From positions 1-35,003 of the IMG/VR virus record IMGVR_UViG_3300042731_001024: DNA of 35,003 nt; one strand, 5' to 3'. Of the stretch, positions 9,113-31,312 are shown one piece after another. This DNA is from a virus. Numbering within the stretch: the stretch's first letter is position 1; every line of letters starts with the position of its first letter. A program made the translations under genes and the position numbers. Below the pieces are notes generated by a model, which saw only the letters and a list, made by a program, of their open reading frames with translations, made no database searches and was not told the origin of the DNA.

Positions 9113-9149
9113 AGTATACAAAAAAGTGCGGCCTATTGTCAAGTACTTT
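9113..9149 (-). promoter_or_regulatory. Composite promoter element, copy B
   Basis: TTGACA (9137-9142), an 18-bp spacer ATAGGCCgcACTTTTTTg and TATACT (9113-9118) form a strong sigma70-type promoter. The transcript would start near 9106 and give a leader of about 36 nt before the MoxR gene. A short AAAGT/ACTTT stem (9145-9149 with 9123-9127) is a weak version of the terminator stem seen in the other copies. Confidence 0.8.
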
Positions 9150-9417
9150 ATTCAATGATTCTTAAAATCCTTGTGCAGTCTTGTTCAATCGACACTTCAG
9201 TTTTGACACCGTTGACTTTTCTCATGGTAGTCAATGAACCATTGTTCACCCAATATCTGAATGCTTTACACTCAACTTTTTCTTTTGCACAAGCATCAAC
9301 TCTTGAGCAATCGAACTTCATGCAGGGCGAAGGCCCGACATCCATAATCGCATCTGCAAGAGCAGAGAAATTAGGTGTCGAGGCGTAATACGCTGGGTCT
9401 ACTTGAATTGTTTCCAT
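9148..9417 (-). CDS. Unknown 89-aa protein with four-cysteine cluster
   Basis: The ATG at 9417 overlaps the vWA stop (TAATG). Cysteines 32, 37, 43 and 50 form C-x4-C-x5-C-x6-C within PCMKFDCSRV and DACAKEKVEC, a likely zinc or iron-sulfur site. This is followed by KAFRYWVNNGS and a strand-rich end. Coupling to the vWA gene suggests they are made together. No family name is assigned. It sits just before composite promoter B. Confidence 0.75.
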   Translation of the reverse strand: METIQVDPAYYASTPNFSALADAIMDVGPSPCMKFDCSRVDACAKEKVECKAFRYWVNNGSLTTMRKVNGVKTEVSIEQDCTRILRIIE

Positions 9418-11771
9418 TATGCAATCTCCTTAATAAATTCGTTAGTTAAAAATCTTGATGTAGTCTTTGACTTCTGATTCTTTTTGAAAGCACTCAGAAT
9501 TCTAGACTTGTTAGCATCAACTAGTTCATCTGATAGTGAGTCTTCACCGTCAGCACCCATGGTTGACAACTGAGTTAGGAACAACTTGTTGTAACCCTTG
9601 ATGTTCATTACCAAACCTTCCTTTCTGATTTGAGCCCACTCAGACTTAGTGTCCTTGTAGTAATCATGCCCAGGCAGTTGAGAAAGTAAAACGTCATAGT
9701 CTCTCTTCTTCGCAAGTGCAAAGTAACCAGTCACTGTAACACCTGTAGTGTCACTAACCCACTGTAACAAGTTCTGAGTTCTATCGAAGGAAGTTCTTGA
9801 GTAACCATCTGACTCTGAAATTGTGTAAGTCTTCTTGTTGTATGGGTCAACAATCTTGGTCACTACTGTAGTTCTCCATCTTCCATCTTCACCGAACTGT
9901 TCATAGAGGTCTTCATTCTCTTTTTCGTTTCTCTCTAGAATGTCAGCAGAGTGTGAGTAACCATCTGTAATTACAGTCAAGATTGACTTCTCGATACCGT
10001 ATGCCTTGTTGAACTCGGGAAGTAACTTTCTCAAGTAAACGATAGACTGGTCAAGAGGTGTTCCACCTAGTCTATATTTCCAAGGTGTCCAGTGAGACAT
10101 ATCCATGTCCCAGTAGTCGGACACACTGAACTGACCATCGAACCACTCGTTGTGTCTCTCGATACACTTCTCAGAGTTTCTCCAAGAGTTGTTGAAATTA
10201 GCGTAACTATTCCAAAGAGCACCAATGATAATCATCATCTTCTTGAACTCTCTGTTGTTCATTTCGTTAGTCATGAACTCAACTAATTTTGGAGTGTCTC
10301 TATATCCATAATCATCACTCTTGTGTGACACTTGGTCTGAGAAAGCATAGATTCTGAAAGGAATGTTTACCTTTCTGCAGAACTCAGCAAGAATCACTGA
10401 CTGTTCAAGCAAGTCACCAACTGCATCGTGGATAGAACCACTCCAGTCTAGAAGAACAGTGACACCATGGTTCTTACCATCGGGTAAGTATGTTGCCCTC
10501 TTGAACACATCATCAACAATCTGATACTTAGCAAGTCTGTTCATGTCTAACTTACCAGTCTTACCAGTAAAAGCATGAACACTTCTTTGAGCAGTTTGTT
10601 TCATGTCGAATTCTTTTGCCATGTGAGCGACAAGATTCTTGTTCTTTGAAATTAACTTACTACCAGTGAAGATTGCTTTGTCATAGTTCTTTTGAGAAGA
10701 AGGAGATTCCAACTTCTCACCGAAGAACTTATCCCAATCAGCAAAAACATCTTTGTAACCATGAACTGCATTCTGTAAAACTTCTTTGTGAGTTTTGAAT
10801 CTCTCACTCATGTCGATGTTTACGATTGCAACATTGTCTTCTGATACGAACTGACCTTCGTTGTTGTGAGCAGCGTGTTCAGTTAGTGACTCTCTAGCAC
10901 CGTCTTCATCGTCATAGTCACCACCACCAGCACCGTTTTGGAAAACCTTAGCACCAGTTTCTTTTTTCTCTTCTTCACCTTCTTCTTGTTTAGTGTCTTG
11001 AGACTCACCATCTTCGAACTCAGCATCAGTCGCTTCTTGTTCAGTTTCATCATCTTCTTCAGTGTTGATGTCAGGCATAGAATCTTCTGAAGATTCGAAG
11101 TCGTCTTCGTTGTAATCTTCCATATCTCCGAAGTCTTCTTCACCTTCTTCTTCATCACCTAGGTCGAACATCTGAGGAACAATCGCTTGGTCGTCTTCAG
11201 TTCTTGTCTCGTTTTCTTTTGACCACTCGTAGATTTCTTTTGCAACTACTACGACATCATCCCAAGTCTTACATCCGTAACACTTGTTTAGAAGAACCTC
11301 TTCTTCTGCAGTGAATTGAATACCAAGAGAAGAACCCACCTTAGTTGTAAGGTTGATTCTATCAATCAGTGAAAGTTTGTTTAGGTCTTTACCTTTAAGT
11401 TGGAAGAAGTCCATTCCCATCAACTCTTTATAAGCAGCGAAGAATGACTTCCTTAGACCTTGATATTTGTTCTTGATAAAGGATTCAATCCTAACGTCCT
11501 CTACAACGTTCAGATATCCTTTAAGAGTTCTGTTTTCCTTAAGAGTAGAGTGAAGACCCTCGTAAGGTGTATACAGAGCATGACCAACTTCGTGACCCAT
11601 GAATAGGTCATAGAGTTCAGATGAAATATCATCCTTTAGAATAGGACAAGCAAGTATCCTATTCTGAACATCGAAGTAAGCGGTAGGGATTTTCTTGTGA
11701 ATGATGGTGAGGTCTTCAGTCGCCATCAATTTCGCAAGGGTGTCTTTTTGGTTTCTAAGTTGATTTGTCAT
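9417..11771 (-). CDS. CobT-like protein: HExxH metallopeptidase-like domain plus vWA domain
   Basis: I chose the ATG at 11771 (784 aa). The N-terminal domain has GHEVGHALYTP (HExxH at residues 60-64) followed by NVVEDVRIE, which could supply the third metal ligand. A long Asp/Glu-rich stretch runs from about 190 to 300. The C-terminal half is a von Willebrand A domain with MIDAS motif LLDWSGS near residue 441 and a TVITDGYS strand. CobT in cobaltochelatase has an acidic middle and a C-terminal vWA domain and works with CobS. The HExxH domain suggests extra peptidase chemistry. It forms a MoxR-vWA pair with the ATPase gene downstream. Composite promoter A places its +1 on this ATG, so the mRNA may be leaderless. 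Confidence 0.85.
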   Translation of the reverse strand: MTNQLRNQKDTLAKLMATEDLTIIHKKIPTAYFDVQNRILACPILKDDISSELYDLFMGHEVGHALYTPYEGLHSTLKENRTLKGYLNVVEDVRIESFIKNKYQGLRKSFFAAYKELMGMDFFQLKGKDLNKLSLIDRINLTTKVGSSLGIQFTAEEEVLLNKCYGCKTWDDVVVVAKEIYEWSKENETRTEDDQAIVPQMFDLGDEEEGEEDFGDMEDYNEDDFESSEDSMPDINTEEDDETEQEATDAEFEDGESQDTKQEEGEEEKKETGAKVFQNGAGGGDYDDEDGARESLTEHAAHNNEGQFVSEDNVAIVNIDMSERFKTHKEVLQNAVHGYKDVFADWDKFFGEKLESPSSQKNYDKAIFTGSKLISKNKNLVAHMAKEFDMKQTAQRSVHAFTGKTGKLDMNRLAKYQIVDDVFKRATYLPDGKNHGVTVLLDWSGSIHDAVGDLLEQSVILAEFCRKVNIPFRIYAFSDQVSHKSDDYGYRDTPKLVEFMTNEMNNREFKKMMIIIGALWNSYANFNNSWRNSEKCIERHNEWFDGQFSVSDYWDMDMSHWTPWKYRLGGTPLDQSIVYLRKLLPEFNKAYGIEKSILTVITDGYSHSADILERNEKENEDLYEQFGEDGRWRTTVVTKIVDPYNKKTYTISESDGYSRTSFDRTQNLLQWVSDTTGVTVTGYFALAKKRDYDVLLSQLPGHDYYKDTKSEWAQIRKEGLVMNIKGYNKLFLTQLSTMGADGEDSLSDELVDANKSRILSAFKKNQKSKTTSRFLTNEFIKEIA

Positions 11772-11777
11772 GTTTAT

Positions 11778-11820
11778 AGTATATAAAAAAGTTGGGCCTA
11801 TTGTCAAGTCCTACCCAACT
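11778..11820 (-). promoter_or_regulatory. Composite terminator-promoter, copy A
   Basis: TTGACA (11802-11807), the 18-bp spacer ATAGGCCcaACTTTTTTa and TATACT (11778-11783). The spacer carries the right arm of a stem AGTTGGG/CCCAACT (11814-11820 with 11790-11796) followed by T6, so the same DNA can terminate the upstream small genes. The left arm lies in the last codons of the 73-aa gene. Only 6 nt separate TATACT from the ATG at 11771. Confidence 0.85.
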
Positions 11821-12032
11821 GGGGTAGGTTCTGACATCAATGAACTGTAGACTAACTCAGTCAATTTAATCCTTTTTGACTCCATCCAGTTATCTACGTT
11901 AAGACCATCCCCGTCCAATGGTGAAGGGATGCCATAGTTAATGAACAGTACTTGCAAGACCTTTTGGTCTGACATTTCTGCCACTATATCAATCGCCTCA
12001 TCTGCGATTGCATCGTTGTAAACGTTACTCAT
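11811..12032 (-). CDS. Unknown 73-aa protein
   Basis: The start is the ATG at 12032, behind AGGAG at about 6 nt; this choice removes a poorly supported longer N-terminus. The protein begins MSNVYNDAIADEAIDIVAEM and is acidic and helical in its first half. The DQKVLQVLFINYGIPSP segment and the VYSSLMSE end show no known motif to me. It overlaps the 32-aa ORF upstream (ATGA), and its last codons form part of the terminator in element A. Its function is unknown. Confidence 0.72.
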   Translation of the reverse strand: MSNVYNDAIADEAIDIVAEMSDQKVLQVLFINYGIPSPLDGDGLNVDNWMESKRIKLTELVYSSLMSEPTPVG

Positions 12033-12127
12033 ATCACTTCTCCTATAAAAATTAACATTAAAATTCCACCCAAAGATGAGACAAAGTCCCAATCTAAGAG
12101 TCCGTTCTTTTGTAATATCTTTATCAT
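12029..12127 (-). CDS. Putative 32-aa membrane peptide
   Basis: A short ORF starts MIKILQKNGLLDWDFVSSLG and continues into a hydrophobic stretch (GGILMLIFIGEVI) that could span the membrane. Its TGA overlaps the ATG of the next gene (ATGA). The region also provides the AGGAG site for that gene. It starts 1 nt after a TATAAT sequence in element D, so translation depends on the true transcript start. Plausible but unproven. Confidence 0.45.
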   Translation of the reverse strand: MIKILQKNGLLDWDFVSSLGGILMLIFIGEVI

Positions 12128-12133
12128 GATTAT

Positions 12134-12173
12134 AGGCTAACAAAAAAGTAGGCCCATTGTCAAGGCCTACTTT
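12134..12173 (-). promoter_or_regulatory. Composite terminator-promoter, copy D
   Basis: AAAGTAGGCC/GGCCTACTTT (12164-12173 with 12145-12154) is a perfect 10-bp stem whose 9-nt loop holds TTGACA with three flanking bases (the hexamer is 12158-12163). A T6 tract follows. The T-tract lies in the spacer of a promoter with TTGACA and a -10 of TAGCCT at 18 bp (12134-12139). A TATAAT at 12129-12134 is 23 bp away. It ends the tRNA operon and probably starts the two small genes that follow. Confidence 0.82.
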
Positions 12174-12184
12174 AAAGTTTTTTT

Positions 12185-12271
12185 TGGTGCCCTCGCCCAG
12201 ACTCGAACTGGGATGCTAAAAATAGCGAGAGATTTTAAGTCTCTTGTGTCTACCAATTCCACCACGAGGGC
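12185..12271 (-). tRNA. tRNA-Leu (anticodon TAA)
   Basis: The 87-nt gene has a GCCCTCG/CGAGGGC acceptor stem, discriminator A and an encoded CCA. The anticodon arm GAGA-CTTAAAA-TCTC gives anticodon TAA, reading UUA. A long variable arm (CGCTATTTTTAGCA region) confirms a type II leucine tRNA. The T arm is CCCAG/CTGGG with TTCGAGT. UUA is a common codon in this AT-rich genome. Confidence 0.97.
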
Positions 12272-12276
12272 GAAGA

Positions 12277-12495
12277 TTAAGCAGCAGAGTATTCTTCGAT
12301 GATTACTCGTTCTAACGTCACCAATCCATCCTCATCTACCTTTAGGATGTAGGGTTCGTAAGGTTTAATTAGATTACTCCCACCCTGAAGGTTTGATATT
12401 TTGAGTTCTGAATCGAATACGATATCACCGTTTGCTTCTACTTTGAATAGGTAGTCTGCAAAAATCATCCCACCTTTTTTGTCGAACCGTGCCAT
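12277..12495 (-). CDS. Unknown 72-aa protein encoded between two tRNAs
   Basis: The protein starts MARFDKKGGMIFADYLFKV with ATG 12495 behind GAGGAG. It is beta-rich by eye, with alternating hydrophobics: FKVEANGDIVFDSELKI, YILKVDEDGLVTLERVII. It ends EEYSAA, only 5 nt from the tRNA-Leu 5' end. No cysteines or membrane segment. It must be on the same transcript as tRNA-Arg and tRNA-Leu, from promoter C to terminator D. Its function is unknown. Confidence 0.75.
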   Translation of the reverse strand: MARFDKKGGMIFADYLFKVEANGDIVFDSELKISNLQGGSNLIKPYEPYILKVDEDGLVTLERVIIEEYSAA

Positions 12496-12515
12496 GTCGG
12501 TCTCCTCTTTGAATT

Positions 12516-12592
12516 TGGCCTCCCCGAGAGGACTCGAACCTCTAACCTACGGTTTAGAAGACCGTTGTTCTATCCAGTTGAACTACGGGGAG
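12516..12592 (-). tRNA. tRNA-Arg (anticodon TCT)
   Basis: The 77-nt gene has a CTCCCCG/CGGGGAG acceptor stem, discriminator G and an encoded CCA. The anticodon arm CGGT-CTTCTAA-ACCG gives TCT, reading AGA. The T arm is AGAGG/CCTCT with TTCGAGT. AGA is frequent in the phage genes here. Composite promoter C begins transcription just 3-4 nt upstream of the mature 5' end. Confidence 0.97.
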
Positions 12593-12601
12593 AGAATGTT
12601 T

Positions 12602-12641
12602 ATATTAGAAAAAAGTGTGGCCTATTGTCAACAACTTTTTT
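12602..12641 (-). promoter_or_regulatory. Composite terminator-promoter, copy C
   Basis: TTGACA (12626-12631), the 18-bp spacer ATAGGCCacACTTTTTTc and TAATAT (12602-12607). An AAAAAAGT/ACTTTTTT stem (12634-12641 with 12609-12616) surrounds the -35 region. Its left arm overlaps the stop codon of the oxygenase gene. It drives the tRNA-Arg, 72-aa gene, tRNA-Leu unit. Confidence 0.8.
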
Positions 12642-13278
12642 AGATATTTCTTAACTTATAGTGGTCTAACTCTAAGTCTTTCGTCCTCTCATCCGTAATT
12701 ATCATGTCGGGGTTCGTTGAGAACCACATTGAGATAGTGTGCCTTGAATTCCTTCGAACAGGAAACACACCGTGTTCATGATACAGTCCTTGAAACAAGA
12801 TACCTTCTCTTGCTTTAGGTTCATGTATATGATTGTTTTGTTCGGGAAAGTATGTCTCTCCCCCTTTGAAATTTTCATTGAGATATAAAATAAGTGTCCA
12901 CTCTCTACTTGGTTTATCTTCTACTGCATCATTGTTTAGTTCTACTGTAGAGTAAGTGTCAAGATGTGGGTCTTGTACTCCACCTATTTCCCACTCGTTT
13001 ATAGCAATCATTTCAGGATATACAGTTTGGTCTGATTCTTTTTTGATGTGACCCACAGCATTATATCCAACACGATTGAATACGTCACGAACCCACTGGG
13101 TGTGAATATGGATATAATCTATTGCTCGGTAGTCTGAACCGTCACCGACACTACGTAGATGCTTGTGTGTCTTGTGATACTGTATCAGATTCTTCGCTTC
13201 CCACTCCGTCACCATGTTCGGCACCTTTATCAGCCTGAACTCTTTGGATGTACTTTGCGAGTGCTTGTCTTTTTTCAT
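12640..13278 (-). CDS. 2OG-Fe(II) oxygenase, prolyl-4-hydroxylase-like
   Basis: The 212-aa protein has the iron-binding HxD in PHLDTYS (H105, D107) and a distal histidine in YHEHGVFPV (H169). R179 in RRNSRHTISMWF would bind 2-oxoglutarate. The central GGETYFPEQ segment is typical of P4Hc-fold enzymes. Such genes recur in marine T4-type phages, with unknown substrates. The ATG at 13278 keeps the usual N-terminal strand (FRLIKVPNMVTEWEA) but overlaps the deformylase gene by 128 nt. The ATG at 13215 would reduce the overlap to 65 nt and cut that strand. It ends at element C. Confidence 0.88.
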   Translation of the reverse strand: MKKDKHSQSTSKEFRLIKVPNMVTEWEAKNLIQYHKTHKHLRSVGDGSDYRAIDYIHIHTQWVRDVFNRVGYNAVGHIKKESDQTVYPEMIAINEWEIGGVQDPHLDTYSTVELNNDAVEDKPSREWTLILYLNENFKGGETYFPEQNNHIHEPKAREGILFQGLYHEHGVFPVRRNSRHTISMWFSTNPDMIITDERTKDLELDHYKLRNI

Positions 13279-31304: not shown

Positions 31305-31312
31305 TATTTATA
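31305..31312 (-). promoter_or_regulatory. Late promoter box TATAAATA
   Basis: A perfect late box lies between gp17 and gp18. The predicted leader of about 34 nt carries the AGGAG site of gp18. It probably drives 18 and 19. Confidence 0.85.

Follow-up and report, generated by a model that had tools for sequence, protein, structure and literature searches.

Predicted sigma70-type promoters that fill gene junctions in a marine T4-like myovirus and its relatives, with a terminator probably added in a subset

Four short elements, named A to D, recur at gene junctions in the viral record IMGVR_UViG_3300042731_001024. This is a complete 35,003-base IMG/VR record of a marine T4-like myovirus, and its whole length is referred to here as the window. 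The elements can be read with good confidence as sigma70-type promoters that fill the junction between two genes and to which a terminator has been added in a subset of copies. Each would serve the host sigma70-type RNA polymerase as a promoter, probably an early one.

In the proposed order, the stop codon of the upstream gene lies at or inside the -35 hexamer TTGACA, followed by an 18-bp spacer with an A/T tract at about -19 to -14, a -10 hexamer TANNNT, six bases, and an ATG or a tRNA at +1. The mRNA of the next gene would be leaderless, and other copies would have a short leader with a Shine-Dalgarno (SD) sequence. In a subset comprising C clearly, B probably and many relatives, the bases before the -35 are predicted to pair with the spacer. 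RNA reading through from the upstream gene would fold with the -35 in the loop and with the T-tract of the spacer as the U-tract; the same DNA would stop one transcript and begin the next. The more specific view is that a cassette of about 40 bp combines a stop codon, an intrinsic terminator, a sigma70 promoter and a leaderless start, and that a T-to-A change of the tract removes termination while keeping the promoter. This view is held to be about evenly balanced between right and wrong.

Architecture of the four elements

The sequence TTGACAATRGGCC occurs exactly four times in the window, always on the minus strand (9142-9130, 11807-11795, 12163-12151 and 12631-12619). All four copies have 0 mismatches, compared with 0.97 occurrences expected from shuffling when 2 mismatches are tolerated. 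The core TTGACAAT(A/G)GGCC-n-ACTTTTTT is present in A, B, C and D and is followed by a T6 tract in 4/4 elements, as had been described in an earlier reading made from the sequence only.

9113..9142, minus strand: element A, -35 TTGACA at 9142-9137, 18-bp spacer with T6, -10 TATACT at 9118-9113
11778..11820, minus strand: element B, -35 at 11807, -10 TATACT ending at 11778
11820-11790, minus strand: possible terminator stem of element B, AGTTGGGT/GCCCAACT, then T6
11813-11811, minus strand: stop codon upstream of element B
12134..12173, minus strand: element C, perfect terminator stem at 12173-12145 (10-11 bp) with TTGACAAT in the loop, T6, weak -10 TAGCCT
12602..12641, minus strand: element D, -35 at 12631, -10 TAATAT ending at 12602

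On the minus strand the promoters read TTGACA-ATAGGCCGCACTTTTTTG-TATACT (A), TTGACA-ATAGGCCCAACTTTTTTA-TATACT (B), TTGACA-ATGGGCCTACTTTTTTGT-TAGCCT (C) and TTGACA-ATAGGCCACACTTTTTTC-TAATAT (D). The 18-bp distance between the hexamers that the sequence-only reading gave for three copies is confirmed in A and B (TATACT) and in D (TAATAT), C having TAGCCT. Sigma70-type -35 and -10 hexamers at 16-18 bp were thus found throughout, except for the poor -10 in C.

With 6 nt between the -10 and an ATG, the A of that codon falls on the usual +1. Element A is predicted to drive the MoxR/CobS-like AAA gene (ATG 9070) through an SD-containing leader. The predicted start of element D is at 12595 and would give the tRNA-Arg a 3-nt leader. 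A leader peptide downstream of A (ATGAGAAAA...) was considered and rejected, as neither its frame nor its length is constant among relatives and it is followed by an SD sequence and the conserved AAA-ATPase start.

The family in relatives and the compressed junction

Diverged copies of the elements were found at the equivalent place in relatives of the large peptidase-like protein, whose gene follows element B. The exact GGCC core was rejected as a family signature, since a single further exact match to the TTGACAATRGGCC-type core was found elsewhere in IMG/VR and the letters are genome-specific. A relaxed-pattern scan gave at least 119 viral contig stretches, a sample biased by its pattern to 18-bp spacers. 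A second sample was anchored on the peptidase-like protein, not chosen by motif, and contained 76 usable loci with 40 unique sites. A TTGACA promoter was present at 39/40 of these sites, 35 by an automatic filter and 4 by eye; the latter (L252, L261, L264 and L274) have TTGACA-18-GATAAT-6-ATG by inspection. The spacer is 18 bp long in 38/39 of the promoter sites, a T-tract is present in 36 of the 39, and in 30/39 the distance from the -35 start to the ATG is exactly 36 nt. The conservation in related genomes on which the sequence-only reading had staked its case therefore exists for the spacer length, the tract and part of the stems, and does not extend to the GGCC letters. The relatives carry what is, as judged from these predicted promoters, a clade-wide family.

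Within the spacer, the variable part changes from one genome to another, and the extra regulator suggested earlier, with a conserved site there, is therefore not required. Spacers are nevertheless more alike within than between genomes (0.456 vs 0.546, 1/2000).

The ATG at offset 36 is taken to be the real start of the peptidase-like gene because the first codons show a third-position bias (changes 758 vs 453 and 357) and the distance from the ATG to the first conserved motif changes by whole codons only (6, 7 or 8). An SD-like sequence is absent in 21/27 starts at offset 36 and present in 58/60 starts at offset 50-75; leaderless and leadered copies would therefore coexist. A leaderless mRNA is inferred from the position of the start codon at the predicted +1, and at the sequence level the junctions agree with this, having a start codon at the predicted start without SD. 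As for the opposite end, 62/77 loci have the stop codon of the upstream gene at -3, -2 or +4 with respect to the -35, and in 20 of those 62 the TGA inside TTGACA is itself the stop codon. With a stop codon at one end and a start codon at the other, the predicted promoter is the entire intergenic gap of about 36 bases.

The upstream gene family is unchanged at 54/71 sites, and several non-homologous upstream genes occur at the equivalent site in the rest. The latter might indicate recombination cassettes of the promoter-early stem-loop (PeSL) type, with the swapping of small gene modules between phages as their main role. PeSLs have reportedly been described in phage RB49. The several copies per genome beside small open reading frames (ORFs) and tRNA genes and the within-genome likeness of spacers would fit such cassettes. 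However, homology is limited to about 30 bp, most sites retain their upstream family, no exchange junction was demonstrated, and the geometry is unlike that of RB49. Swapping as the main role is consequently considered quite improbable.

Among the 120 elements in the listed matches, the most frequent -10 hexamers were TATACT (44), TACCAT (25), TATAAT (17) and TAGGAT (13). TACCAT and TAGGAT are unusual for sigma70.

A short-query BLAST of the motif in named phages gave nothing convincing. In Pelagibacter phage Mosig and the examined parts of Methylophilales phage Melnitz and Pelagibacter phage HTVC008M, the T-tract family was not present in number. A host-genome scan for the motif gave scattered single matches, with the exception of one 121-kb contig (JAAXIF010000105.1; L174/L177) in a Sphingobacteriales metagenome-assembled genome. 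This contig holds four elements together with peptidase and MoxR genes and is apparently a phage of the same clade inside a bacterial assembly.

One recurring copy (L036:1800, minus strand; also L075, L076, L089, L092 and L149) precedes a conserved sequence, GTAGGAAATCGAGACGGAAGTAAG.., without an ORF. The opposite strand of L036 has a glutamine riboswitch at 1223-1286, in the neighbourhood where Melnitz has a transfer-messenger RNA (tmRNA). ARAGORN found no tmRNA in this neighbourhood of L036. The conserved sequence is possibly a non-coding RNA.

Hairpins and the A/T tract

Stem energies at the four copies were calculated with the hairpin forced to end at the T-tract and were compared with those of 400 random same-strand flanks. 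Element C gave -16.0 kcal/mol, matched by 0.25% of random flanks, and element B gave -9.6 kcal/mol, equalled by 4%. A hairpin further upstream, CCTACCC..GGGTAGG, competes with the stem of B, which could in reality be less stable than calculated. Element D reached -2.5 kcal/mol, and 47% of random flanks do as well; its stem is A/T-only and not above chance. No hairpin forms in element A. A G+C-rich stem directly followed by a U-tract, as in an intrinsic terminator, is accordingly found in C, is probable in B, and is lacking in A and D. The sequence-only reading had seen stems in A, C and D and a textbook 10-bp terminator in D. By these energies the textbook terminator is C (12173-12145), which follows the tRNA-Leu after about 11 nt, and two of the three named stems were lost. 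The same reading had omitted the plausible stem of B, the minus-strand gene context, the stop codons by the -35 and the start codons at the predicted +1. Its idea of a composite terminator-promoter survives for C and, through the complementarity of arm and spacer, at the level of the family.

The latter was examined by exchanging 5' flanks between elements, which asks whether each flank fits its own spacer. At the orthologous sites before the peptidase-like gene, pairing with the own flank averaged -3.95 vs -2.42 +/- 0.28 kcal/mol with swapped flanks (0/5000), from which the hairpin with the -35 in its loop appears real at many sites. The excess persisted on collapse to 20, 12 or 7 dissimilar sites (14, 23 and 42 of 10,000). 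In the broad set of 120 non-redundant elements, among the matches listed, the values were -2.39 vs -1.88 +/- 0.15 (1/5000); a simple stem score gave z 3.7 for this set and 2.45 for 61 strongly different elements. Near-perfect stems occur at single sites, such as TGAGGCC-TTGACAAT-GGCCTCA-GCTTTTT in L261 and AAAAGGTGATGC-TTGACAAT-GCATACGCTTTTTT in L272, with the arms AAAAGGTGATGC..GCATACGCTTTTT.

The tract was found to be exchangeable. Elements ahead of a HAD-type phosphatase gene and at two peptidase-gene sites have an A5-A6 tract at nearly the same position, with an 18-bp spacer and an ATG at +1. An A-tract scan with an 18-bp spacer gave 23 matches, about 15 of them ahead of HAD or peptidase genes; with a 17-bp spacer it gave 10 matches, none in the family gene context. 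Since an A-tract cannot act as a U-tract, the tract would have a role in the promoter. The T6 run found in all four elements is thus not only the U-tract of a terminator, as relatives can have an A-tract in its place. Stimulation of sigma70 promoters by AT-tracts immediately before the -10 has been reported (PMC7229825). The A-tract copies show no stem excess (own flank -1.36 vs swapped -1.39), and stems of -4.4, -5.4 and -8.9 occur in the three HAD orthologues with a T-tract. In this small sample the pattern suggests a promoter with an optional terminator.

The same inverted repeat could be an operator, in which a DNA-binding regulator recognises the arms around the -35 and no RNA hairpin forms. 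Much of the pairing does adjoin the -35, and spacer letters are common within a genome. An operator should keep its letters, but the arms differ from copy to copy in sequence, length and register, and the stem excess goes with T-tracts, not A-tracts, in the small sample available. The operator is regarded as very improbable.

Several observations weigh against the proposal of junction-filling promoters with a terminator in a subset. The -10 of copy C is poor, and a usable stem is lacking in copies A and D and in many copies in relatives. Stems of -9 or lower were not in excess in the broad set (4 vs 2.9 expected, among the listed matches). The A-tract set is small and partly related. The label of early promoters, which probably applies, draws only on the type of the -35 and -10 and on the presence of late-type TATAAAT boxes in other parts of the window. 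Some of these points would equally suit a pure promoter family, where the hairpins are incidental, the T-tract serves RNA polymerase only, and termination occurs perhaps at C alone. Such a family would account for T-tracts retained in stemless copies, for A-tracts replacing T-tracts at orthologous sites, for the stemless A and D, and for the lack of excess of strong stems. It would leave unexplained the own-flank pairing above swapped at orthologous sites and in the collapsed sets, the near-perfect stems of L261 and L272, and the missing stem excess in A-tract copies. A family of promoters alone is for these reasons thought rather unlikely, and promoters with a terminator in a subset are preferred.

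Genomic setting and known systems

The minus strand carries all larger genes of the window. The nearest relatives of its tail sheath are those of Mosig (50%), Melnitz and HTVC008M. The neighbourhood of the elements consists of a 2OG-Fe(II) oxygenase gene, a tRNA-Arg, a small ORF, a tRNA-Leu, small ORFs, the peptidase-like gene and the MoxR/CobS-like ATPase.

12640..13278, minus strand: 2OG-Fe(II) oxygenase gene, stop codon 8 nt ahead of the -35 of D
12516..12592, minus strand: tRNA-Arg(TCT), placed behind element D, its predicted driver
12185..12271, minus strand: tRNA-Leu(TAA), immediately before the terminator of element C
12029..12127, minus strand: small ORF of 32 amino acids (MIKILQKNGLLDWDF...), predicted to be leaderless, opening at the predicted +1 of element C
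9417..11771, minus strand: large peptidase-like gene (phrog_459), ATG 11771 at 36 nt from the -35 start of B, the predicted +1

Pfam gave no match for the large peptidase-like protein. The small ORF behind element C is unannotated and of membrane type, with the sequence MIKILQKNGLLDWDFVSSLGGILMLIFIGEVI; similar ORFs of 31-32 amino acids lie behind the same promoter in several relatives. An ordinary strong intrinsic terminator is present at 3899-3876 on the minus strand (AAGGGGC..GCCCCTT, then T5).

TATAAAT boxes of the T4-late type are located at 31312, 29246, 28713 and 26058 on the minus strand, just ahead of the tail sheath, tail tube, portal and scaffold genes. Because late-type boxes precede these genes, the TTGACA elements probably form an early class distinct from them.

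In pelagiphage-like myoviruses, early promoters have so far been called only by predictors trained on E. coli (PMC9004378, PMC7029224). The elements give a specific, searchable early-promoter motif with a predicted start site for these phages. They suggest that leaderless translation is widespread there, and they predict many gene starts and small ORFs. The natural pairs of A-tract and T-tract copies would separate the promoter function from the terminator function of the same bases.

The PeSL cassettes of the T4-type phages RB49/phi1, PST and nt-1 likewise combine a short sigma70-type early promoter with a stem-loop and are repeated between small genes. The likeness proposed by the sequence-only reading holds to this extent, including the sigma70-like early promoter as judged by its sequence, and fails for the placement of the stem-loop. 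In RB49, 20/74 TTGACA promoters have a dyad (6-9 bp) inside the spacer or across the -10; arms flanking the -35 occur in 1/74 and T5 in the spacer in 1/74. The present elements have covarying arms on both sides of the -35, carry the T-tract within the spacer and place the ATG at the predicted +1. They would work like composite terminator-promoters outside the RB49 geometry, and recombination at them is possible.

T4 early promoters (the sigma70 'uber' promoters) likewise have near-consensus -35 and -10 hexamers with extra conserved positions (PMC2988021). They use a TGn extended -10, whereas the present elements lack TGn, carry a T- or A-tract in an 18-bp spacer and often have an ATG at +1. 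The AT-tract element of Warman et al. 2020 (PMC7229825) is also an A/T run just upstream of the -10 that stimulates sigma70 RNA polymerase. It was reported from spurious E. coli promoters, at -17 to -23, without enrichment in canonical ones, while the tract described here occupies about -19 to -14 of phage promoters that look canonical. In Deinococcus-Thermus, TANNNT a few bases before an ORF gives a leaderless mRNA, and the -10 alone suffices (PMC12340547). Unlike these leaderless genes, the present elements are found in phages and have a full -35 overlapping or adjoining the stop codon of the upstream gene.

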